From IMG/VR virus record IMGVR_UViG_3300023174_000040, positions 186,001 through 250,000 of that record: DNA of 64,000 bases; one strand, written 5' to 3'. Positions 414-50,640 of this stretch are shown here, in pieces. Each line of letters begins with the position of its first letter. The stretch's first letter is position 1. The translations under genes were made by a program, and so were the position numbers. The notes under the pieces are model-generated. The model did no database searches. It had not been told where the DNA came from and saw only the letters and a list, made by a program, of their open reading frames with translations. This DNA comes from a virus.

Positions 414-1274
414 TTAATTTTTTGGTTTGGTCCAACCCAATGATGATTTAATTTTTCCTCTTAAAAGAAGCATAATATTTCCTCTGTTTAAATTATTGTC
501 TCGGCAGAATTTATTTAAATTTTTTATTTTAATTAAATTTCCATTTGGATCAATTATACTAAATTCTTTAGCATATTTCTCAGCTAATTTTTTGTGCCCT
601 TTTGCCCTACCTTCCTTGTTTCTTGGGTTATTTTGATCGTGTATTCCATTTTTATTTTCATGAGCTTTTTTGCCGCCAATTTTTCCACCATTTGCTCCGA
701 TTTTTTTGTAGTATTGATAGATGTCTGATTCGTTTAATCTATCCAATCTTTTTAAAATTCCTCTTCTTTGTATTGATTTTCTTTCCTCGTTTGACATTTT
801 GCCCAATCCAGCCGCATATGCTCTCTTGGCATTTTCACGTAGCTGTTCTTTTGTCATTGAAAACAATCCTTTTTTTAAAGTCTTGCATTTCATTCCAATT
901 TCCCTAAGAGTTTCAATATCACAAGTCGGAGAAAATCTACTTCCATTCAGGCAACCTTCTTTGCCATAATGTTCTTCTGTTAGTTTATTTTCAAAATCAG
1001 AACATTTTATTTCGTCGCAAAACAAGCATATTATCTCTTTTATTATTTTGTTGTTTTTTTCTATTTGTTCTAAAAATACTTTTCTGTTAACTTTGGGGCT
1101 TCCAATATATTTGTCACTTAAAATATCCCCTTTAAACTTTCTTTTTCCGTAATAATACGGAACAACTCCATTCTCTATTGCATCTGGGAAACTTGTTTTA
1201 TATATGTAAAAATTACCTTCTACTTCCTTGTAAGATAATTTTATTTCTACATTACTGTAAAAAATTCTTTTCAT
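414..1274 (-). CDS. GIY-YIG homing endonuclease with C-terminal DNA-binding motif
   Basis: A free-standing, site-specific endonuclease is likely. With the start at 1274 (MKRIFYSN) the N-terminal third has the GIY-YIG layout: a YIYKT strand, YYYGKRKFKG, then DKYIGS, and a downstream segment KLTEEHYGKEGCLNGS that can supply the catalytic Glu, as in Seg-type phage enzymes. The middle is basic and glycine-rich (GANGGKIGGKKA). The C-terminus (IDPNGNLIKIKNLNKFCRDN...) matches the NUMOD/IENR-type helix-turn-helix found behind phage homing nucleases. An in-frame start at 1481 would run across repeat copy B and the start of a plus-strand gene, so I prefer 1274. It lies next to a tRNA, a typical homing neighbourhood. 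Confidence 0.75.
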   Translation of the reverse strand: MKRIFYSNVEIKLSYKEVEGNFYIYKTSFPDAIENGVVPYYYGKRKFKGDILSDKYIGSPKVNRKVFLEQIEKNNKIIKEIICLFCDEIKCSDFENKLTEEHYGKEGCLNGSRFSPTCDIETLREIGMKCKTLKKGLFSMTKEQLRENAKRAYAAGLGKMSNEERKSIQRRGILKRLDRLNESDIYQYYKKIGANGGKIGGKKAHENKNGIHDQNNPRNKEGRAKGHKKLAEKYAKEFSIIDPNGNLIKIKNLNKFCRDNNLNRGNIMLLLRGKIKSSLGWTKPKN

Positions 1275-1331
1275 AATTATATAATAGTTATTAAAATCCA
1301 ATCCCACTCTTTTTTTATCTTTAATCTTTGC

Positions 1332-1425
1332 TATAATATGTTCTCGGAGGCTGATGCTAGTGATCTGTATTGAGAAATTAAAATCTTCATTTTTAATTTC
1401 CGTTCGAGAGAATAACGTTTTCGCC
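1332..1425 (+). repeat. Stem-loop cassette copy B with TATAAT box
   Basis: Copy B carries a perfect TATAAT at 1332-1337 just before the TCGGAGGCTGATGCT block (1345 onward), so RNA could begin near 1344. A 10-bp inverted repeat follows (GAAATTAAAA 1373-1382 with TTTTAATTTC 1391-1400), then the TTCGAGAGA...TTTTCG hairpin (1403-1422). No good -35 is seen. The ribosome-binding site and ATG of the 1449 gene come about 10-25 bases later, so the element would be its 5' leader. Confidence 0.55.
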
Positions 1426-1448
1426 ATGGAGGGCGATGAGGGCAATTT

Positions 1449-1631
1449 ATGCTTAACCTCGAAAAAATTAGTGATTTTCATTATAAAAGCTTTTACGGAT
1501 ACTTTTTATTTAAAAAGAATGAATCTAGCTGGGTGTTCATTCCTTTTGAAAAAGAATTTAACACCGAAGAGTTGATGGAAGTATTTGGTATCTTAAAGAG
1601 TCTTGATAATCAAAAATTTTCAAATAGTTGA
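1449..1631 (+). CDS. Small hypothetical protein (60 aa)
   Basis: A 60-residue ORF beginning MLNLEKISDFHYKSF with normal acidic and basic composition and no membrane segment. A GGAGGG/GAGGG ribosome-binding site lies 8-22 bases upstream, directly after stem-loop cassette B, and cassette C follows its stop, so it looks like a single-gene early transcription unit between two cassettes. It overlaps the dispensable upstream extension of the endonuclease gene on the other strand and converges with the 1620-2276 gene by 12 bases. No family recognised. Confidence 0.6.
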   Translation: MLNLEKISDFHYKSFYGYFLFKKNESSWVFIPFEKEFNTEELMEVFGILKSLDNQKFSNS

Positions 1632-2276
1632 TTCTTTATTTCCGTTCGAAGATAAGACCTTTTCGCCGGTGTTTTTGATGTCGTAGTAAAAAGAATCGGT
1701 GTCTTCTGTTGTCCACCGGTCTGCATTCTCACAAACGAATATTTGTTTATCCACTTTATATTTAGGAATATTGTCGATCTTTAATGGGTTATTAATAAAG
1801 TTGCTATCTCTCCATAGTATTCTATTGTTTGGCTGAAGAGCAAAGTGTCCATTATCAAGTTTGATTAGGTGTGCATTTTTATAATCTTGGGGAGTATCGC
1901 TATAAGAGTTATTTTCCCAATCAAAGGTCATCATGTATGTTCCCCATACTAATGATTTATCTTTTAATATAACTTCACATCTTTTATTAACAAGATAAGT
2001 GAATACTATAACATTTATTTCATTTCCAAAGCAATCCCATAATTCTAATAAATCAAGTCTATATCCTGGGTGGTCTTTTTTATGAACAAGAGCACTTATT
2101 GGAACGTTGGCTCTTTGAGCACCGTTCTCTAACATTATGTGAAATGTTAATGCTCTTGCTGCTGTGCTTCTTGCTGCGAAAACAAGACAATATTCATATT
2201 CATCAAATCCTGATTGATATTCAAAAAGATGTTCTTTTTTTACAAAACAATAAAACGGGTTTATATTAACGTTCAT
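1620..2276 (-). CDS. Conserved phage-type hypothetical protein
   Basis: A 218-residue soluble protein starting MNVNINPFYCFVKK. A recognisable stretch, FAARSTAARALTFHIMLENG around residues 33-52, and a Trp/Asp-rich second half (WGTYMMTFDWENN) give the look of a conserved beta-rich phage protein, but I cannot assign a function. Its start overlaps the stop of the upstream leader-bearing gene by 11 bases, indicating a minus-strand operon with 2266-2763 and 2767-3060. The last 15 or so codons are the antisense of stem-loop cassette C, so the C-terminal tail may have been remodelled by insertion of that repeat. Confidence 0.65.
   Translation of the reverse strand: MNVNINPFYCFVKKEHLFEYQSGFDEYEYCLVFAARSTAARALTFHIMLENGAQRANVPISALVHKKDHPGYRLDLLELWDCFGNEINVIVFTYLVNKRCEVILKDKSLVWGTYMMTFDWENNSYSDTPQDYKNAHLIKLDNGHFALQPNNRILWRDSNFINNPLKIDNIPKYKVDKQIFVCENADRWTTEDTDSFYYDIKNTGEKVLSSNGNKESTI
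1621..1667 (+). repeat. Stem-loop cassette copy C
   Basis: Copy C starts CAAATAGTTGATTCTTTATT and holds the TTCGAAGA...CCTTTTCG hairpin (1646-1665). It begins inside the last codons of the 1449 gene and reaches antisense into the 1620-2276 gene. About 50 bases align with copy D at 3078, including the CAAATAGTT flank. It lacks the long first stem of A and B and has no long T-run after the hairpin. Confidence 0.5.
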
Positions 2277-2763
2277 GGGTAACTTCTGGGTGATTCTCTA
2301 TTAACCAATTATTAAATGATTCCACTGCTCTTCCAAAGTCTGGACTTGATTTTACTCCTGATGGCAATTGCGGGAGCTGTCTTTTTGTTGGATCAAACTT
2401 ATTAGTGGGAGCTTTAGTTGCTTTTACCTTGCCCCCTATTATTTGAGCTTTTCCCCTTGAAACAACTACATCTTTTCCATTTACTTTTTGCGTACTTGTT
2501 TTCATGGGAACTTTTTTAGCCATATCCAACATTTCTGCTTTTTCGTCTTCAATATCTTGTTCTTCATCTGTGAGTTTGGAAGCTACGGGTTTTTTAATGG
2601 GAGGAGCTGCACTTGCTTTATTTGATATTCCCAAACCTATTCCTGCGAGACTTCCTGCTACCAATGCGCTCCTTAGTAGTTTATTCTTTCCTAATGAGTC
2701 TAAGATTCCTTCGTCTATTATCTCTGGGTGTTTTTCTATTAGCCATTCATTAAATGTTTTCAT
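2266..2763 (-). CDS. Putative capsid-targeted small protein with two leader motifs
   Basis: A 165-residue protein that starts MKTFNEWLIEKHPEI and ends with a second, diverged copy, ESFNNWLIENHPEVTHER. The N-terminal copy matches the T4 capsid-targeting sequence position by position (MKTYQEFIAE) and offers an L-x-E cut site (LIE/K). The middle has a short Ala/Gly hydrophobic stretch near residues 28-52 (ALVAGSLAGIGLGISNKASAA) and a basic, Pro/Lys-rich, probably disordered part. Basic disordered cargo fits an internal head protein, but no enzymatic domain is visible. It is the middle gene of a three-gene operon. Confidence 0.7.
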   Translation of the reverse strand: MKTFNEWLIEKHPEIIDEGILDSLGKNKLLRSALVAGSLAGIGLGISNKASAAPPIKKPVASKLTDEEQDIEDEKAEMLDMAKKVPMKTSTQKVNGKDVVVSRGKAQIIGGKVKATKAPTNKFDPTKRQLPQLPSGVKSSPDFGRAVESFNNWLIENHPEVTHER

Positions 2764-2766
2764 GTT

Positions 2767-3060
2767 TTATATTTCTATTTGATATTCTGGATCTTTGACC
2801 ATGCTGTTGTATTTATTAACAAAGAGCTTCAAGTCTTCTTCTGCGTCGTGTTCACTATTAGTGTGACTGTTAAATATTTTTCTCCACTTTGGAACTAATT
2901 GCTTTACATCTTTTTTTAGATCTTCTAATCCTTGTGGGTCGTTTTCTTTGCACCATTCAATTTGCTCCAACACATACATGGCTTCCCCGTATGCTTCATC
3001 TTCTGCCCAACCATCATTGTTATTTTCTTTAATTTCTAACCATTCATTAAATGTTTTCAT
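2767..3060 (-). CDS. Putative capsid-targeted small acidic helical protein
   Basis: A 97-residue protein beginning MKTFNEWLEIKENNNDG: the leader MKTFNEWL is identical to those at 2266-2763 and 3410-3775, and I-K-E supplies an L/I-x-E type cut site. The rest is acidic and helical (EDEAYGEAMYVLEQIEWCKE). The first 21 bases of the gene are identical in sequence to the starts of the two sister genes, so the leader has been shuffled at DNA level. It is the first gene of the minus-strand operon and starts close to cassette D. Function unknown beyond the inferred packaging. Confidence 0.7.
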   Translation of the reverse strand: MKTFNEWLEIKENNNDGWAEDEAYGEAMYVLEQIEWCKENDPQGLEDLKKDVKQLVPKWRKIFNSHTNSEHDAEEDLKLFVNKYNSMVKDPEYQIEI

Positions 3061-3409: not shown

Positions 3410-3775
3410 ATGAAAACATTTAATGAATGGCTCTCCGGTAAGTTAGAAGAAAATCAAAGTGCTGATGGGTTTAGTTTTAAAAATCATCCCATAGCAACTC
3501 AGCAAATTGCTTCGACAGTTGTTAGTCTAGTTCCAATTGATTTTGAACATAGTCCGAGCTACGGAGAGAGAAGTTCTGATTTTGGGTTATTAATCAAGAA
3601 TCAGCATGGTGAGGCTAAAGCTTATCTGAGTCCAAACAAAAGCGTTGCCATGAATTACTACAATGAATTCATATCAGTCTTTAATCATTTAGTCACTCAA
3701 AGTAGTGAGAATGAGGTCGTTATTATGCAACCTCATACACTAGATAAATTACTTGCCCACATTGGCGTTAGATAG
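3410..3775 (+). CDS. Putative capsid-targeted protein (121 aa)
   Basis: Begins MKTFNEWLSGKLEENQSADG; the first eight residues and 21 bases are identical to two genes encoded on the opposite strand 0.4-0.7 kb to the left. L-E-E gives a possible prohead-protease site. The remainder (GFSFKNHPIATQQIASTVVS...LDKLLAHIGVR) is a soluble alpha/beta domain I do not recognise. The gene follows the 3187 gene and converges with a small membrane protein one base further on. No clear Shine-Dalgarno is present (TATAAATTACT before ATG). Confidence 0.7.
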   Translation: MKTFNEWLSGKLEENQSADGFSFKNHPIATQQIASTVVSLVPIDFEHSPSYGERSSDFGLLIKNQHGEAKAYLSPNKSVAMNYYNEFISVFNHLVTQSSENEVVIMQPHTLDKLLAHIGVR

Positions 3776-4010: not shown

Positions 4011-4181
4011 ATGAAAAACAATAAAAAAAATCTAAATCTATATTTGTATGTTTTTAGTTTTGGTATGGCACTATGGGCATATTATAATTTATACTTATTG
4101 GATGGATTTTGGATGGCGGCAAGTATTTTCATTGCAATATGGGCAAATAATATTCAATGGAATTTAAGAGAAAAATTATAA
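4011..4181 (+). CDS. Small membrane protein (56 aa)
   Basis: A short ORF from ATG at 4011 to TAA at 4179-4181 encodes MKNNKKNLNLYLYVFSFGMA followed by a second hydrophobic part (LLDGFWMAASIFIAIWANNI) and a basic end (REKL). A basic N-terminus and two closely spaced membrane helices give a hairpin topology. It is divergent from the 3777-3986 gene and lies upstream of another mini-membrane protein at 4216. Function unknown. Confidence 0.5.
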   Translation: MKNNKKNLNLYLYVFSFGMALWAYYNLYLLDGFWMAASIFIAIWANNIQWNLREKL

Positions 4182-4215: not shown

Positions 4216-4341
4216 ATGGACATAATACAAATTTGCGCAACAGTTCTGATAGTTTCTTTTACAACAGTCTTCAGTGTGGGTTGCTTTTGCCTCACCTGTG
4301 GTATGATAATGGTGTTGTTGGGAAAAGACAAAGATAACTAG
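4216..4341 (+). CDS. Very small membrane protein (41 aa)
   Basis: ATG at 4216 after an AAGGAGA ribosome-binding site held in a perfect hairpin loop. The 41 residues begin MDIIQICATVLIVSFTTVF and form one long hydrophobic helix, Cys-rich near the middle (GCFCLTCGM), with a charged tail GKDKDN. The strong SD makes translation credible in spite of the size. The stop lies 12 bases before the GTG start of the Acb1-like gene, suggesting coupling. Function unknown. Confidence 0.55.
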   Translation: MDIIQICATVLIVSFTTVFSVGCFCLTCGMIMVLLGKDKDN

Positions 4342-4353
4342 TGGCCAACTATC

Positions 4354-4773
4354 GTGTACCCTTTCTCCTCTACAGGTATTGTTGAATACTTTGAGGATTA
4401 TTGCGTACTAAATATAGACCAGGGAATTAGCGACTATTATAGAAGCCTGATACCTAAAAGCTTTTATGTTAAGCCTCAGATGAAAAAAGCGCACATCACA
4501 ATAGTGCGAAAAGGAAAAGAAAAAGTAGAATCTTATGAATCTTGGGGGAAATACTCTGGAAAGATTCTAACTTTTAATTACAGTCCAATTATTCAAAGTG
4601 ATAATACTTATTTTTGGCTAGACTCAGTTTGTAGTGAGATAGGAAGCATAAGAAAAGAACTTGGTTTAAACGAATATCGTGATGATACTTACTTTGGCGG
4701 AGTAAAAAGAAATTGTTATCACATAACAATAGGAAATATCAAAGATAAACTTGTTAAAGGTCATCATCGGTAA
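4354..4773 (+). CDS. T4 gp57B/Acb1-like 2H phosphoesterase, candidate anti-CBASS protein
   Basis: A 139-residue protein with two HxT motifs, AHITIV (His47, Thr49) and CYHITIG (His123, Thr125), the signature of 2H phosphoesterases. The spacing and the stretch WGKYSGK...FNYSP...YFWLDSVCSEIGSIRKELGL agree with what I recall of the T4 gene 57B family. T4 57B is Acb1, which cuts the cyclic nucleotide messengers of CBASS immunity. The frame opens at an in-frame TAG at 4339, so the GTG at 4354 is the likely start. It follows a mini-membrane gene and converges with another by 20 bases. Anti-CBASS activity is inference. Confidence 0.72.
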   Translation: MYPFSSTGIVEYFEDYCVLNIDQGISDYYRSLIPKSFYVKPQMKKAHITIVRKGKEKVESYESWGKYSGKILTFNYSPIIQSDNTYFWLDSVCSEIGSIRKELGLNEYRDDTYFGGVKRNCYHITIGNIKDKLVKGHHR

Positions 4774-4924
4774 AAATAATATTTGTCTCATATTTATTGT
4801 AATAATTATTTTTTGGAATATCTCTTCGAATAATCTTTGTTTCCTTGGGCGTGAAAACAGAATCAAGAATCAAAGATAGAACGCCCAAAACAAATAATGA
4901 TAGAATTATAACTAAAACAATCAT
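4754..4924 (-). CDS. Small single-pass membrane protein (56 aa)
   Basis: ATG at 4924 overlaps the stop of a 23-codon ORF by one base (TAATG), a classic coupled arrangement. It encodes MIVLVIILSLFVLGVLSLIL, one membrane helix, then a charged tail (KIIRRDIPKNNYYNKYETN) ending DDDL. It is the third ORF behind the EamA transporter gene on the minus strand and runs 20 bases into the 3' end of the Acb1-like gene. Function unknown. Confidence 0.5.
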   Translation of the reverse strand: MIVLVIILSLFVLGVLSLILDSVFTPKETKIIRRDIPKNNYYNKYETNIIFTDDDL

Positions 4925-5005: not shown

Positions 5006-5431
5006 TCAGTTTGAGCCTAATATAAAAACTACCATACCAATTACAACTAGTAAAGTTCCAATAGTTGAAATTAAAGATAATTGAAATTGTCCTGTTGCTA
5101 AAAACGCAAATAAAATACAAAATAAAGGATAAGAGATTTCAATTATACTTGCGTGTGTAGCGCTTTTACTTTGTATTGCGTTTATGCAAAGATAGTTACC
5201 TGCTATAGCACTGACAAAGGCCAATATCATCCAAGATATCGACCTGGGAGTAAAGTCGCAATCTATTTTAGTTTTACTGGTCAATAACCAGATCATCCAA
5301 AAAATACAATTAGCGGTGCCGCTTAAAGCTAAATACATTTTTCGGTCTATGCTTTTAAGCACCACTTCGGTGGAACTGTAGGATAGAGCCCAACAAACGG
5401 CGGTAAGTAATGCTGTGATATACCAAGGCAT
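5006..5431 (-). CDS. Half-size EamA/DMT-family transporter
   Basis: A 141-residue protein with about five hydrophobic helices (YITALLTAVCWALSYSSTEV; SWMILAFVSAIAGNYLCINA; SYPLFCILFAFLATG; LISTIGTLLVVIGMVVFI). The pattern, with AxxxxN in the middle and P in the fourth helix, is that of a single EamA domain of the drug/metabolite transporter superfamily; usual EamA proteins have two domains, so this one would act as a dimer in the inner membrane. Substrate unknown. It heads a minus-strand unit with two tiny ORFs. An ACTAATATA box lies 6-15 bases upstream of the ATG and there is no SD. Confidence 0.75.
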   Translation of the reverse strand: MPWYITALLTAVCWALSYSSTEVVLKSIDRKMYLALSGTANCIFWMIWLLTSKTKIDCDFTPRSISWMILAFVSAIAGNYLCINAIQSKSATHASIIEISYPLFCILFAFLATGQFQLSLISTIGTLLVVIGMVVFILGSN

Positions 5432-9926: not shown

Positions 9927-11213
9927 TTATTTTTTTCTTTTAATAAAAACTCTATTCTCGAGAAATTCAACAAACTTTAAAGCGTCCTCTGCTTGATATT
10001 GAGCACTAGGGTTTGAAGATGATCTAAAAACCTTTATATCATCTTTTATCTTTTCTTTAATTTTTTGTATCAAATCTTTAATGTCTTCTACTGGGTCATT
10101 AGGATCAGAAGATACCATATCAACGTAATAAAAAAACGTGTAATAAGAACCAGGAGCGTATCCTTTTTTGACTTTAAATTCTATTTTTTTAGTACTTGGA
10201 TAATAATTAATGACGAACTTTGTATTATTTTTATAATTCTTTTCTATTATTCCCGGATATTCTTTGTCATATTTAAGGCCATAAGTATTGGATATAGCTT
10301 CCATCTTGCTGTAATTATTTGATAATACAGGCTTTCTTTCATTTTTTTCTGTCTTGAGAAAACTTTTAATTTCTTGAATCACGTCGGATAAATCATTATT
10401 GTTCTCTATTACAAACTGTTTTTTGAATTCATCTTTATATCCATATATTGAAACCCAAACAGTATTAGGATGTTCTTTGGAGTTAGATAATTCTATTGTT
10501 GAATATCTATCTTTATCTCTAAGTGTTATTTCTGTTCTACCTTCACTTTGCCACCCCCTTGATTTTTTCTTAAATAATTGGTAATCAGGAAAGTTTTTAG
10601 CTATAGAATATAATATTTTATAATTACCATCATTAGTTATTAAATCTACAACTCTATACGACTTGGGGTCCAAATAAACAACTTGATTGGGTTCATTGCT
10701 ATGAATTACACCCAACCCAGGATCATATAAAACGTTATACCCAGTCTTTTTAAAGAAGCTGTTCCAGGAAGAGTTTCTGGGTAGTCCTTTTTGATTTCTT
10801 ATTCGTTCCAGAACTCCCCAAAAAAGATGACCAGGAGAATCCATGTTTGACTTATGATAAACTTCATCGCTATCTAAAAGACTTTTATCTATACCCATAT
10901 CAATCAAAAGCTTCTCAGCGGTAATCCTGTCCATGTCAAGATTTAAAACTTTAGCACTTTCGGAAGGCTCAATTAGAAACGCATAAGGGTAACTTGCAAA
11001 CATATTATTTTTAAACAAACCATGACCCAGGACATAATCTTTTGGGAAAACATAAACTCCTATTGGGTCAAAGTGGCTTGGATTTGGATTTAAACTCAAG
11101 AAGTCTGTTTTTGAAAAATGAACACCGGAGTATGGACCTTTTAACTGTTTAACTTTTTCAAATAACGCTGGTGAGGATACTTCGCTTCTTTCAAGCCACG
11201 TTTTAAAACTCAT
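9927..11213 (-). CDS. Leader-bearing protein with ADP-ribosyltransferase-like N-terminal half
   Basis: 428 residues starting MSFKTWLERSE, a variant of the phage's capsid-targeting-like leader. Residues about 25-200 (GPYSGVHFSKTDFLSLNP; IGVYVFPKDYV; GYNVLYDPGLGVIHSNEPNQ; VVYLDPKSYRVV) have the order of elements found in phage and polyvalent-protein ADP-ribosyltransferase-like domains, ending in a strand like 'vvfdp..i'. I cannot point to a proven catalytic Arg/Ser/Glu set. The C-terminal half (about 220-428) is a charged alpha/beta region of unknown type. T4 delivers the ADP-ribosyltransferase Alt with its DNA, so a packaged ART is plausible but inferred. Confidence 0.5.
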   Translation of the reverse strand: MSFKTWLERSEVSSPALFEKVKQLKGPYSGVHFSKTDFLSLNPNPSHFDPIGVYVFPKDYVLGHGLFKNNMFASYPYAFLIEPSESAKVLNLDMDRITAEKLLIDMGIDKSLLDSDEVYHKSNMDSPGHLFWGVLERIRNQKGLPRNSSWNSFFKKTGYNVLYDPGLGVIHSNEPNQVVYLDPKSYRVVDLITNDGNYKILYSIAKNFPDYQLFKKKSRGWQSEGRTEITLRDKDRYSTIELSNSKEHPNTVWVSIYGYKDEFKKQFVIENNNDLSDVIQEIKSFLKTEKNERKPVLSNNYSKMEAISNTYGLKYDKEYPGIIEKNYKNNTKFVINYYPSTKKIEFKVKKGYAPGSYYTFFYYVDMVSSDPNDPVEDIKDLIQKIKEKIKDDIKVFRSSSNPSAQYQAEDALKFVEFLENRVFIKRKK

Positions 11214-11220
11214 AAACTAT

Positions 11221-12252
11221 TTATGATACCAGTGATACAAATTCTTCAAATTTATAGTTGGAAAATTCCTTTACATATTTAATATGGACATTTATTGGAG
11301 AGTCAATCCAGCTTTTTATAAAATCTTTGAGTTCATTCTCTCTATTTCCAAGGTTTTCAGAGATTATTTGTATTTCAAGATCCTCCAGGGTGGTTTGTAT
11401 TATCTTAAACCTTTTAATTCCAAACTTCTCATAGTAATCTCTGCTGCCTATAAGGGGCCATTTTTTGTCTCCGTTTGGAAGAACAAACATATTTCTTACT
11501 CTACCGTGGATTTTTTTGATTGTTTGGAGTTTTCTGCCGCATGTGCATTCTCCAAGTTCTACATGGTCTCCATGCTTATATCTTTTTATGTAAGGATTGG
11601 TGGTAGTAGTTATTATTATTCCACCATCTTCGTCAACCTCTACAATTTGATTCTCCATCACATGCTGAACAGAGGGGTTGTCTGGGCACTGGATGCTTAT
11701 TGTTCCGCACTCCTCGCTGGAGTACATGGACCCTCCCATTTCACTTGTTCCTTTATAATCGATTAAATTTGAAATTTTTGATAAGTCTAACTGGGCGACA
11801 ATGGATGGAGCACAATGCAAGTAATGAGGATTTTTTTCCTCTAACCATTTCTGTAGTTCCGAGACAGAGGAATAGCCTATTTTAAAAGTTTTACCCTGAG
11901 TATTTTCTATGTTCCTTGGTATGCCCCATGAATTCATATCAAGAGTTTTAGAGCCCGGCCTGATAATGGCTATGTTCTTTGACACATCCCATTTTCTCCA
12001 TTTAATTTCTCTTATGTTGGTTGCTAAATACCAAATAAAATCCAATGAAGTTTTTGCAATAGTAACAGGCTCGCCGGTCGAACCAGATGTTCTTGTTCGA
12101 GACAAGTCTTTTCTCATCTCCACTTTTCTTAGATCTTCTCTGGTCATAACTTTAAAATTTTTTAAATATTCATAATTAACTTTGTGGTTCCATTGAGATT
12201 CTTCGAAAATATCAAGTAATTTTTTCACATTATCATAAATTGTTTTGTTCAC
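11221..12252 (-). CDS. CapK/phenylacetate-CoA-ligase-like adenylating enzyme
   Basis: The likely start is GTG at 12252, 4 bases after a GGAGA ribosome-binding site; the longer frame from 12300 would overlap the upstream gene by 68 bases. The 343-residue protein has the AMP-binding P-loop TSGSTGEP (residues about 55-62), a central GTSEMGGSMYSSEECG segment, and the C-terminal YKHGDHVELGECTCGRKLQTI...HGRVRN typical of the PaaK/CapK branch of the ANL superfamily. These enzymes activate a carboxylate with ATP; in CapK context they act in polysaccharide or surface-polymer synthesis. It is in an operon behind a methyltransferase-like gene. Unusual cargo for a phage. Confidence 0.72.
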   Translation of the reverse strand: MNKTIYDNVKKLLDIFEESQWNHKVNYEYLKNFKVMTREDLRKVEMRKDLSRTRTSGSTGEPVTIAKTSLDFIWYLATNIREIKWRKWDVSKNIAIIRPGSKTLDMNSWGIPRNIENTQGKTFKIGYSSVSELQKWLEEKNPHYLHCAPSIVAQLDLSKISNLIDYKGTSEMGGSMYSSEECGTISIQCPDNPSVQHVMENQIVEVDEDGGIIITTTTNPYIKRYKHGDHVELGECTCGRKLQTIKKIHGRVRNMFVLPNGDKKWPLIGSRDYYEKFGIKRFKIIQTTLEDLEIQIISENLGNRENELKDFIKSWIDSPINVHIKYVKEFSNYKFEEFVSLVS

Positions 12253-12712
12253 AGAATCTCCAAATATAAAAAGAGTATTCTTCAAATTTAATATATTCAC
12301 TAGGCTTTATAAGAAAATCATTTTCGCTTGGGAAGTGATTGGCTATCTTCATTGGTTTCAACTTATAGTTAAAACTTCTTGTTATAAATACATCAGAAAA
12401 TTTACTACACATATTTAAAACATTGTCGCAAAGTTCTTTTGTAAAATTTAATACACCATCACCAATAATATTGCTGTATTTTTTCTTATTATTAATCCAA
12501 TTACCGACTATTACAGTAGATGAATTATACCAAGGATCAATATCCATTTGATGATCACTAAACTCTATAAGTCTATGTGTGCAGCCGAGAAGTAGAGTTT
12601 TTCCAGGGATCAAATGACTTCTATATATTTTCACGTCACCATCTGAGGGCGATAATGGATGAGGCAAAGAAACAGACCAATAATTTTTATTTATTTTTTT
12701 ATTACTGCGCAC
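12233..12712 (-). CDS. Compact SAM-methyltransferase-like protein
   Basis: 159 residues from a GTG start (MRSNKKINKNYWSVS). The order LLLGCTHRLIEF (motif I-like), MDIDPWYN (acidic end of strand 2), IIGDGVLNF (motif IV-like) and FITRSF fits a small class I methyltransferase of the 'GDGSLN' type, though the glycine loop is reduced to LGCT. The length is short for the family. It is the first gene of the minus-strand operon with the CapK-like enzyme, which suggests a joint small-molecule or sugar modification. Binding of SAM is inferred. Confidence 0.5.
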   Translation of the reverse strand: MRSNKKINKNYWSVSLPHPLSPSDGDVKIYRSHLIPGKTLLLGCTHRLIEFSDHQMDIDPWYNSSTVIVGNWINNKKKYSNIIGDGVLNFTKELCDNVLNMCSKFSDVFITRSFNYKLKPMKIANHFPSENDFLIKPSEYIKFEEYSFYIWRFCEQNNL

Positions 12713-22704: not shown

Positions 22705-23157
22705 ATGGATGAAAGAGATTTTCTCAATAGTAAAAATATAAAGGAATATAGAGACTTCGCATTTCGTGAAGATATGATGAAGTTTGCTGTTGGGGTTATA
22801 CTTGGAAATTCTTTCAATAAAGTTATAAATGGAATATCTGACTATCTATTAATGCCTATTTTTAAGTTTTTAGTTTCAAAGACAGGAGATGGATGGAGAA
22901 ACTGGGCATTCATTCCGTTTAACGGACTTGAGTTTGAAGTGGGAAGAATGATAGGTGTGCTTGTAGATTTTCTTTTAATTTCTTTTATTTTGTATTTAAT
23001 TTGTCAAAAGGGATTGGGTAGATTAAAAAGAAAAGAAGAGCCCGCAAAAGGTAAAAAATGTGAGTATTGTTGCAAAGAAATAGACACTGAAGCGAAAAAA
23101 TGTCCTTATTGCACCTCTGACGTCACATTACAAACATCAATCCCTCAAGACCATTGA
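22705..23157 (+). CDS. mscL: MscL-like mechanosensitive channel with C-terminal zinc ribbon
   Basis: Start taken at the ATG at 22705 (MDERDFLNSKNIKEYRDFAF). The first helix FAVGVILGNSFNKVINGISDYLLMPIF matches TM1 of MscL, including the glycine-rich pore pattern and the conserved MP; GVLVDFLLISFILYLICQKG matches TM2, followed by the basic RLKRKEE cluster. Instead of the usual cytoplasmic helix, the C-terminus has two CxxC pairs (CEYCCKEI...KCPYC), a zinc ribbon. Length 150 against about 136 in E. coli. It would form a pentameric inner-membrane channel opened by tension. Role in infection unknown. Confidence 0.82.
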   Translation: MDERDFLNSKNIKEYRDFAFREDMMKFAVGVILGNSFNKVINGISDYLLMPIFKFLVSKTGDGWRNWAFIPFNGLEFEVGRMIGVLVDFLLISFILYLICQKGLGRLKRKEEPAKGKKCEYCCKEIDTEAKKCPYCTSDVTLQTSIPQDH

Positions 23158-23944
23158 AGATAGTATCAAGATTATATTCGTATTTAACGGCATTATTGTG
23201 TAGCATTTCATTATATTCTCTGTATGCTGTTTCATCTACCATATTCTTTGTTCTATAGTTGGGTCTGCCCCAGGCCATCTTTCTGTCTATTATGAGGCTT
23301 TTAGGAAGGTCATTGAATGTTATTTTACCTGATATAATATACTGGGCCAATAGTTCATATACGAACTCATCGCTATTCCTCAGGATATTATTTCTTGCAC
23401 TTTTCATGGTGCCTACAGCTAAGAAGATTGCTTTTCTCTGCTTCTCATAGTCTGGCCGAAGGCTGCTATATCTGCCTGTGCTTATTCCATATACATATTG
23501 TAATATTTCATCGAAGTCTCTTCTGACTTCTTCATTAAAATGTCTTTCAAAAGTTTTATCACGTCTAATCGCATGGCCTAATCTATGGGCCATGGCCCAA
23601 GCTGTCATAGGTATTTTTTCTGCCCCAGTATTATTTGTGAATATAACGGTTATAGAATCTTCTTTTGGCTTTATATCAACTTCTAAATTCTCTTTAACCC
23701 ATTCCGGGGTCACCTGACCGACTTCGACATGTTTACTTGCCTTAAAACTCCTTAAAAAGTAAAATTCAAAATTACTCTTGCTGTTGCTCCAGTGCTTATG
23801 TATTTTTTCAACCGCCTTGGGATTTTCTAGTATTCCCGAGTCTTGTGTGTTATATCCGTATTTTCTCTTAGCTTCAGGTCCCCATTGACCCATTAGTTCA
23901 AAATTGGTTACAGGTGACTCGTTGATAAAATCTTTGAAGTTCAT
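23123..23944 (-). CDS. Leader-bearing zincin-like protein with HRxxH motif
   Basis: 273 residues starting MNFKDFINESPVTNFE, with an I-N-E cut site typical of the leader family here. The core has MTAWAMAHRLGHAIRRDK: His120 and His124 sit as in HExxH zinc proteases, but the catalytic Glu is replaced by Arg121. A later DEFVYELLAQYI could carry a third ligand. So it is either an inactive zincin fold or a metal-binding protein with another chemistry. Its 3' end overlaps the channel gene by 35 bases on the other strand; its start overlaps the upstream stop (ATGA). Confidence 0.6.
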   Translation of the reverse strand: MNFKDFINESPVTNFELMGQWGPEAKRKYGYNTQDSGILENPKAVEKIHKHWSNSKSNFEFYFLRSFKASKHVEVGQVTPEWVKENLEVDIKPKEDSITVIFTNNTGAEKIPMTAWAMAHRLGHAIRRDKTFERHFNEEVRRDFDEILQYVYGISTGRYSSLRPDYEKQRKAIFLAVGTMKSARNNILRNSDEFVYELLAQYIISGKITFNDLPKSLIIDRKMAWGRPNYRTKNMVDETAYREYNEMLHNNAVKYEYNLDTIFNGLEGLMFVM

Positions 23945-31579: not shown

Positions 31580-32398
31580 TTAAAAATCAACTAAAGAAAT
31601 CTCATCATCAGATATTTCTCTGCCGAATTTATTAATAAATGCTTTTTTGATAACTTCTATCGGCTTGCCTTTTAAGTATAAGATAAATTCTTTTGGATCA
31701 TCTATGGAAGTTTTCTTTCTGCTATTAATAATTTTATTTTTTTCTAATAATTTATACGCAGAATTTTTAAAACCTTGTATGGCGTCTAGCGCCCCATTTT
31801 CACCGCCCTTATTCCCAGATATTCTTCCAGTCCAATCCATTGTTATTATATAAAGAAGAAGTTTAACTTTTCTTTCATTTTTATAATTTCCATCTTGATC
31901 GAAAACAACAGAAGACACCTTCTTGGAAAAAGATCCATTTCCAAGACTCATGTGATAATCAATACAGAAGTATATATCTTGTATTTCATCAGGGGATAGT
32001 ACCGATAACATAGGACTCCACATTGAACCAAGCTTATCTATCATTGGCTCGTAATGGTGGGATTGATCGTGCTGGTGTGCTGATATCTTACCGGATGTGT
32101 CGGCGGCATCTTTCCAATGAATGCCGTCTACAGTTGTCGCACTTGCTTTTCCAATATCGTGAAGCCAAGCACAAATCTTAAGAATTTTCTCTTCTTTATC
32201 AGACAGATCAAAGTTTATTTTTGAAAAGGGAAAAATTCCTTGCTCTTTCTTAAGTAGTCTTTTGGCAACTTCAAGAGAATTTCTGACCATTCTTGTGTGT
32301 TTGAAAACATCGCCCTCTGCGTGGTGTTCGGGATTTTGAGGGACATCCTTAAGTAAATCCCTAAGACTAGATTCGACAAGCCAAAGTTTAAAATTCAT
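31580..32398 (-). CDS. Leader-bearing HD-domain phosphohydrolase
   Basis: 272 residues starting MNFKLWLVESSLRDLL, with an L-V-E cut site of the leader family. The HD fold is clear: FKHTRMVRN (His34), AWLHDIGKASATTVDG (His80-Asp81), SAHQHDQSHH and IYFCIDYHMSLG, then a late MDWTGRI Asp. The arrangement resembles the HD domain that follows the catalytic domain in bacterial CCA-adding enzymes, here as a separate protein. Likely a metal-dependent phosphatase or phosphodiesterase acting on nucleotides or RNA ends. Virion packaging is inferred from the leader. Confidence 0.75.
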   Translation of the reverse strand: MNFKLWLVESSLRDLLKDVPQNPEHHAEGDVFKHTRMVRNSLEVAKRLLKKEQGIFPFSKINFDLSDKEEKILKICAWLHDIGKASATTVDGIHWKDAADTSGKISAHQHDQSHHYEPMIDKLGSMWSPMLSVLSPDEIQDIYFCIDYHMSLGNGSFSKKVSSVVFDQDGNYKNERKVKLLLYIITMDWTGRISGNKGGENGALDAIQGFKNSAYKLLEKNKIINSRKKTSIDDPKEFILYLKGKPIEVIKKAFINKFGREISDDEISLVDF

Positions 32399-49971: not shown

Positions 49972-50640
49972 TTATGGTTTACCCGGAGCTTTGTTATTCC
50001 ATTGACCACTTTGGAATTTTGCCATGGAGTCAGAAACTGGTGCTGGCACTGCCACAGCGGCTGGAACACTGATTGTAATCCCTGACTTTTTATTTTTAAC
50101 TAGCTGTTGTCCCACTATTATTGCGTTTGGTTTATACTTAACGGATTTGTCTATTTTAAGCTCAGAATAAATTTTTTGAATAAGAGATTCAATGCTACCT
50201 ATAGTGGCTGGGTCACCTTGTATATGGACATGTAAGGACAATTCTTGTGGAAGAGATTTAATACTAGATTGTAACTTTCTTTCTTCTACAAGTCTGTCAT
50301 ATGTATTTTGTTCGATAAGAACGGCTGCCTCTTTAATATTGAAGAGTTGCTGGTGTCCTTGGGAGGTATCTACATCATCAAAATTGTATGATGGGGCCGA
50401 TCCTCTACTGCACGATTTGCCTCCGCAAGCACCATATTTCAAGGGATTAACAATTGTGTTTTTAATACCACCAACAGTTTTTTGTCCACGACCTACTTTC
50501 TGACCTCGGTAAGCATCGATCCAATCGTTGTCTCTTCCTTGTAGGGTATTGGCGGTTAGACCGGCCGCAGCGCCCAAACCGGTTGCAATCTGATTTAAGA
50601 AGGATTCGTTTGCTTCAATCCAATCAATGAATTTTTTCAT
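49972..50640 (-). CDS. Leader-like small protein upstream of tape measure (222 aa)
   Basis: MKKFIDWIEANESFLNQIAT is a weaker leader match (W-I-E or A-N-E). A Gly/Ala-rich hydrophobic stretch (GLGAAAGLTANTLQG), a Cys-containing basic middle (KYGACGGKSCSRGSAPSYNF) and an alpha/beta part with ELSLHVHIQGDP follow, then a disordered Pro/Val tail (TISVPAAVAVPAPVSDSMAK). The start codon is directly preceded by AATATATATATTT. It is divergent from the tail operon. Function unknown. Confidence 0.55.
   Translation of the reverse strand: MKKFIDWIEANESFLNQIATGLGAAAGLTANTLQGRDNDWIDAYRGQKVGRGQKTVGGIKNTIVNPLKYGACGGKSCSRGSAPSYNFDDVDTSQGHQQLFNIKEAAVLIEQNTYDRLVEERKLQSSIKSLPQELSLHVHIQGDPATIGSIESLIQKIYSELKIDKSVKYKPNAIIVGQQLVKNKKSGITISVPAAVAVPAPVSDSMAKFQSGQWNNKAPGKP

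Follow-up and report, generated by a model that had tools for sequence, protein, structure and literature searches.

Does a short gene with two HxT motifs in a large viral genome encode an Acb1-type anti-CBASS protein, as a sequence-only reading had proposed, or does it belong to another family of the 2H phosphoesterases? The gene lies in a window of 64,000 bases, bases 186001-250000 of a virus record of 323,267 bases, where positions 4354..4773 (+) form an open frame of 139 aa with a GTG start. The aligned codon in locus L002 is ATG, which supports the start call. The window and L002 proteins are 84% identical, and the comparison of the two genes gave dN of 0.08 and dS of 0.62 (dN/dS about 0.13): the window gene is under purifying selection, and is thus a selected gene and no chance ORF. 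The gene is real and its superfamily had been rightly named, but its family had not. The coordinates are collected in Table 1.

Table 1. The 2H gene, its motifs, the ORF directly upstream and the leader-bearing ORFs; positions are those of the window unless a locus is given.
Feature	Position	Strand	Basis
CDS, 139 aa, 2H phosphoesterase (PHROG 12204 / Pfam 2H-SAK-like)	4354..4773	+	PHROG, family PF22547, dN/dS, AF2
First HxT motif, H47-I-T49	4492..4500	+	His 34/34; position 49 S/T in all
Family signature W64-G-K66 (WGK/WKK)	4543..4551	+	W64 invariant; K66 30/34
Family signature R100-K-E102-L-G104 (RxELG)	4651..4665	+	R100 invariant; E102 30/34
Second HxT motif, H123-I-T125, close to C-terminus	4720..4728	+	His invariant; T125 33/34
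41-aa single-TM ORF, directly upstream of 2H gene (12-nt gap)	4216..4341	+	ORF kept in L001, L002
Leader ORF	2266-2763	-	MKTFNEWL(x)E-like start
Leader ORF	2767-3060	-	MKTFNEWL(x)E-like start
Leader ORF	3410-3775	+	MKTFNEWL(x)E-like start
Leader ORF	9927-11213	-	MKTFNEWL(x)E-like start
Leader ORF	23123-23944	-	MKTFNEWL(x)E-like start
Leader ORF	31580-32398	-	MKTFNEWL(x)E-like start
Leader ORF	49972-50640	-	MKTFNEWL(x)E-like start
Leader ORF elsewhere in genome	L101:5754-6245		
Leader ORFs elsewhere in genome	L095, L096, L097, L102, L105, L106		

The two HxT motifs that had been named, His47/Thr49 and His123/Thr125, are present, and both histidines are invariant across 34 aligned family members, as are R52, W64 and R100; the single exception to threonine at position 125 is a serine. 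In the AlphaFold2 model of the protein (pLDDT 88.9, pTM 0.82), two strands and a helix precede the first HxT strand, after which come a long strand, a further strand, a helix and the second HxT strand. The motifs lie on strands E47-53 and E122-128, in agreement with the 2H superfamily, whose two Hx(S/T) motifs are placed on strands of a duplicated fold. Relatives used for structure prediction came from IMG/VR and from genome contigs. The idea of a paired-HxT phosphoesterase was thus upheld by the invariant histidines, by the 2H-like fold model and by matches to Pfam 2H-SAK (PF22547) in 32 of the 34 members, the best with an E value of 4.9e-10. The window protein was assigned to PHROG 12204 (E 8e-19), and all 34 aligned members fall in the same group. 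Against PF22547 the window protein alone reached an E value of 0.011, under the curated cut-off, which marks it as part of a divergent branch of the family; a six-frame scan of the window's own genome with this model (E <= 1) gave no match, as the branch is too divergent for the model in such a search. The gene product belongs to PHROG 12204 / 2H-SAK, a branch of the 2H superfamily from jumbo phages.

Comparisons with T4 57B, the Acb1 reference, do not bear out membership in the Acb1 family. The Pfam Acb1 model (PF23474) recognizes T4 57B with an E value of 2.7e-60 but matches none of the 34 aligned family members, the window protein included, and it has no match in the window's own record; T4 57B belongs to PHROG 755 and not to 12204, and BLASTP of the window protein against it found no match. 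The strings WGKYSG, FWLD and IRKELGL, read earlier as a T4 57B-like context, are all missing from T4 57B (AF158101), which contains HSTICYSR and HITLSY; they characterize the family to which the window protein itself belongs. The HxT/HxT tetrad of Acb1 (H44, T46, H113 and T115 in T4) has its counterparts in H47, T49, H123 and T125, but this is a feature of the superfamily and not specific to Acb1. Acb1 furthermore requires a C-terminal lid, whose E141 and W147 contact the bases (PMC9117128). This lid is absent from the PHROG 12204 family, where 7-17 residues (28 in one member) separate the second histidine from the C-terminal end, against 36-47 in Acb1. The family has conserved aromatics at Y12, W/Y16, Y28 and W64 and Acb1 has base-stacking residues Y12, W74 and F107, but a residue-level superposition of the two sets is unreliable. 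Finally, true Acb1 genes are found separately in the genomes that carry the family: 16 of 30 carrier records have a PF23474 match elsewhere, 15 of them above the cut-off, and these Acb1 genes, serving as a control, are never less than 13 kb from the family gene.

A profile and structure comparison had been suggested earlier as a check on Acb1 identity. When the family was aligned with hhalign to a diverse Acb1 alignment, which included Acb1 copies from jumbo-phage records, both HxT motifs fell in register (E 0.0015) but with a probability of 16%, indicating kinship at the level of the superfamily and not of the family; T4-like Acb1 alone gave 1.3%, in an alignment too narrow to serve as a test. 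Searches of the PDB by sequence (phmmer and profile) returned chance matches only. With Foldseek, the best 2H-enzyme matches of the window model in the PDB were drCPDase (5h7e, 0.21) and Usb1 (1.0), while the model of a canonical relative, L048, matched Acb1 7t26 best (E 0.058), followed by 9q2y, LigT and Usb1, with the Arabidopsis Appr>p CPDase 1fsi also among its matches. Among BFVD models, a viral protein named Swiss Army Knife 2H (0.022) was one of the matches of the window model, and Acb1 proteins were matched at 0.2-1. As every PDB fold match has an E value above 0.05, the fold indicates a 2H-like protein and leaves the substrate undecided.

Nearly all relatives of the gene belong to giant phages, among them phage G, RaK2, Serratia phage BF, GAP32, 121Q-like phages, Atu_ph07, Phosso and LR756511 (595 kb), and 46 IMG/VR loci carry it as well. 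One relative matches 71 phage records, and in isolated jumbo phages the family is mostly annotated as "hypothetical protein". The Phosso homologue XYS97260.1 is annotated as an RNA ligase, an identity that we rejected as no ligase domain matches the family. Two Paenibacillus contigs (L059 and L060) carry a 2H relative in neighbourhoods that read as ordinary bacterial-looking genes, so the family extends beyond phages; on both contigs, judging by names read from translations, the relative is flanked by a Uma2-like nuclease-type ORF on one side and a TetR-type regulator on the other.

To characterize the surroundings of the family, we searched 147 neighbour ORFs from 29 loci for Pfam domains and found RNA_ligase to be the commonest, with nine; CCA-adding enzyme came next (4) and then DUF2828 (3). 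Distances were computed in 30 jumbo-phage carrier records, 25 of which have a PF09414 ligase. In 16 of these 25 the ligase lies within 5.5 kb of the family gene, where uniform placement would give 1.7, and in nine it is far away; kinship among the phages inflates such counts. With one BF-like representative kept, the ligase is within 5.5 kb in 8 of 17 records against 1.4 expected (P value about 1e-5, indicative only because the limit was set after seeing the distances and some of the remaining records are possibly related). By motifs and sequence clustering, the neighbouring ligases appear to include those of another group (L039, L048 and L050), which have an N-terminal HNH-like part, and a further ligase in L037. 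In Serratia phage BF, the family gene stands among genes for an RNA ligase, a DUF2828/DUF7788 protein, Nudix and Appr-1-p proteins, and a neighbouring CCA-adding enzyme is annotated with 2'3'-cyclic phosphodiesterase activity; in phage G, a gene annotated for Appr-1-p processing is near. In several groups of phages, then, the family is genomically linked to genes of RNA repair, those for RNA ligase and CCA-adding enzyme among them. Association with a ligase has been used as the criterion for telling 2H domains of RNA repair from the other 2H domains of phages (PMC5512222), and jumbo-phage 2H proteins have been predicted to clear RNA ends (PMC7824862, PMC9503650).

The association holds for the family but not for the window copy, for which the ligase of the same genome, of T4 Rnl1 type (1.2e-15), lies about 136 kb away. 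The genome also encodes a PNK-like AAA_33 kinase and tRNAs for at least Gln, Leu, Lys, Ser, Glu and Gly, as well as a tmRNA; RlaP, RtcB and PF09414 were searched for in the window's genome and none was found. The tmRNA, with the tag GTVNYAMAA, is beside tRNA-Leu (L099:13483-13842, or G000:C1 about 113483-113842).

We consider it somewhat probable (about 0.55) that the gene product acts as a stand-alone 2H phosphoesterase that needs no metal, opens RNA 2',3'-cyclic phosphates and so heals broken ends. H47/T49 and H123/T125 would serve as the acid-base pair, acting on 2',3'-cyclic phosphates that host defence RNases produce on RNA, mainly tRNA, and the opened ends would be ready for the phage kinase and RNA ligase. 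The estimate is set at this level because the genomic linkage discriminates between the readings, yet in the window genome about 136 kb separate the gene from the ligase. We infer the substrate, the role on tRNA and the retention of the same function in the window lineage, where the ligase linkage is not local. If biochemistry confirmed this, PHROG 12204 could be annotated as an RNA end-healing cyclic phosphodiesterase complementing phage RNA ligases.

A different target for the same catalytic pair would be the cyclic oligonucleotide signals of CBASS, type III CRISPR or similar systems, the protein then being an anti-defence hydrolase with Acb1-like action and no family-level homology to Acb1. 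As this protein has its fold and HxT pair in common with Acb1, an anti-CBASS-like activity keeps some probability, and the in-register motifs of the hhalign comparison, the first place of 7t26 among the PDB matches of the L048 model and the Acb1 models in the BFVD list all point the same way; half of the carrier records moreover have no Acb1, so the role could be filled by this family. The tail that would carry the lid residues E141/W147 is, however, missing, none of the 34 members matches PF23474, a separate Acb1 is already present in 15 of the 30 carrier records, and what the family is linked to is RNA ligases and not Acb1. On balance we hold this explanation to be rather unlikely. Equally tentative is its extension to the family as a whole, by which PHROG 12204 / 2H-SAK might be a second 2H lineage cleaving defence signals (CBASS, type III CRISPR or others) with a lid-less base pocket differing from that of Acb1, or one that does so in addition to healing RNA ends.

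The Appr-1-p/Macro and Nudix genes near the BF gene and the Appr-1-p-annotated gene of phage G bring in another substrate, ADP-ribose 1'',2''-cyclic phosphate or some other small cyclic phosphate, processed in an NAD-linked branch of RNA repair that would also involve Macro, Nudix or sirtuin genes. Such links have been proposed (PMC9503650) and the presence of 1fsi in the fold list agrees with them, but the linkage is seen in few annotated genomes only, and we find this improbable. A Usb1-like 3' exoribonuclease or a 2'-5' phosphodiesterase on RNA or 2'-5' oligoadenylate, suggested by the Usb1 structures in the fold lists of the window and L048 models and by the roles proposed for phage 2H domains without ligase linkage (PMC5512222), is more improbable still, since linkage to ligases recurs across several lineages of the family.

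The immediate surroundings of the gene add a separate observation. The tiny membrane proteins to which attention had been drawn are conserved in part: the 41-aa ORF directly upstream and the ORF at 4754-4924 (-) are kept in L002, but only L001, which is near-identical, retains that at 4011-4181 (+). BF-like phages have a 46-aa TM ORF directly upstream of the family gene, with no clear homology to the 41-aa ORF of the window. More telling as context are three neighbours with a leader like that of T4 internal proteins, all beginning with MKTFNEWL. Leaders like MKTFNEWL(x)E open at least 16 of the 347 ORFs of the genome, where the frequency at internal methionines would predict 0.57 (P value 2.5e-9); the leader-bearing ORFs are apparently unrelated beyond the leader and include the PNK-like kinase, whereas the 2H protein itself lacks it. 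T4 IPI starts with the similar MKTFKEF, and in T4 this leader directs the proteins that bear it to the head (PMC3012670). By analogy, the leader suggests a capsid-targeting sequence that would mark packaged and possibly injected proteins, the PNK-like kinase among them. This observation may merit more attention than the 2H finding.

Other ORFs of the window were recorded alongside. The ORF at 5006-5431 (-), conserved in L001 and L002, encodes an EamA-type half transporter of 141 aa (Pfam EamA 4.5e-12). A 355-aa ORF at 414-1481 (-), directly adjoining tRNA-Gln (340-412), matches PHROG 2081 HNH endonuclease in its C-terminal part (2.6e-11), and the 359-aa ORF at 11221-12300 (-) is, by eye only, an adenylate-forming (CoA-ligase-like, SGSTGEP motif) candidate.

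These results correct a tempting anti-CBASS label and offer a role open to testing for a widespread family mostly annotated as "hypothetical protein", and the coexistence of true Acb1 and PHROG 12204 in the same genomes, with different neighbours, provides a useful control. Set against known systems, the window protein resembles LigT, drCPDase and Usb1 in the 2H fold and the HxT/S pair, and these are among the best, if weak, PDB matches of the window and L048 models, but sequence similarity is not detectable beyond the motifs and the Foldseek E values are 0.2 or worse. With T4 gp57B / Acb1 (PF23474; PDB 7t26 and 7t27) it has in common the superfamily, the two HxT motifs and a similar length. 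Relative to the T4 Acb1 sequence, the window model has an additional N-terminal strand and misses the C-terminal one, for which the extra strand may substitute. The closest likeness is to the named members of PHROG 12204 / PF22547, Bacillus phage G gp116, Serratia phage BF_0183, RaK2_00028 and Phosso XYS97260.1. The branch formed by the window protein with L014, L015 and LR756511 differs from the rest of PHROG 12204 in lacking the YDPxR...MK N-terminal loop, in an insertion ahead of the second HxT and in having no RNA ligase nearby, but with the named members the window protein shares both HxT/S motifs and the WxK and RxE signatures.
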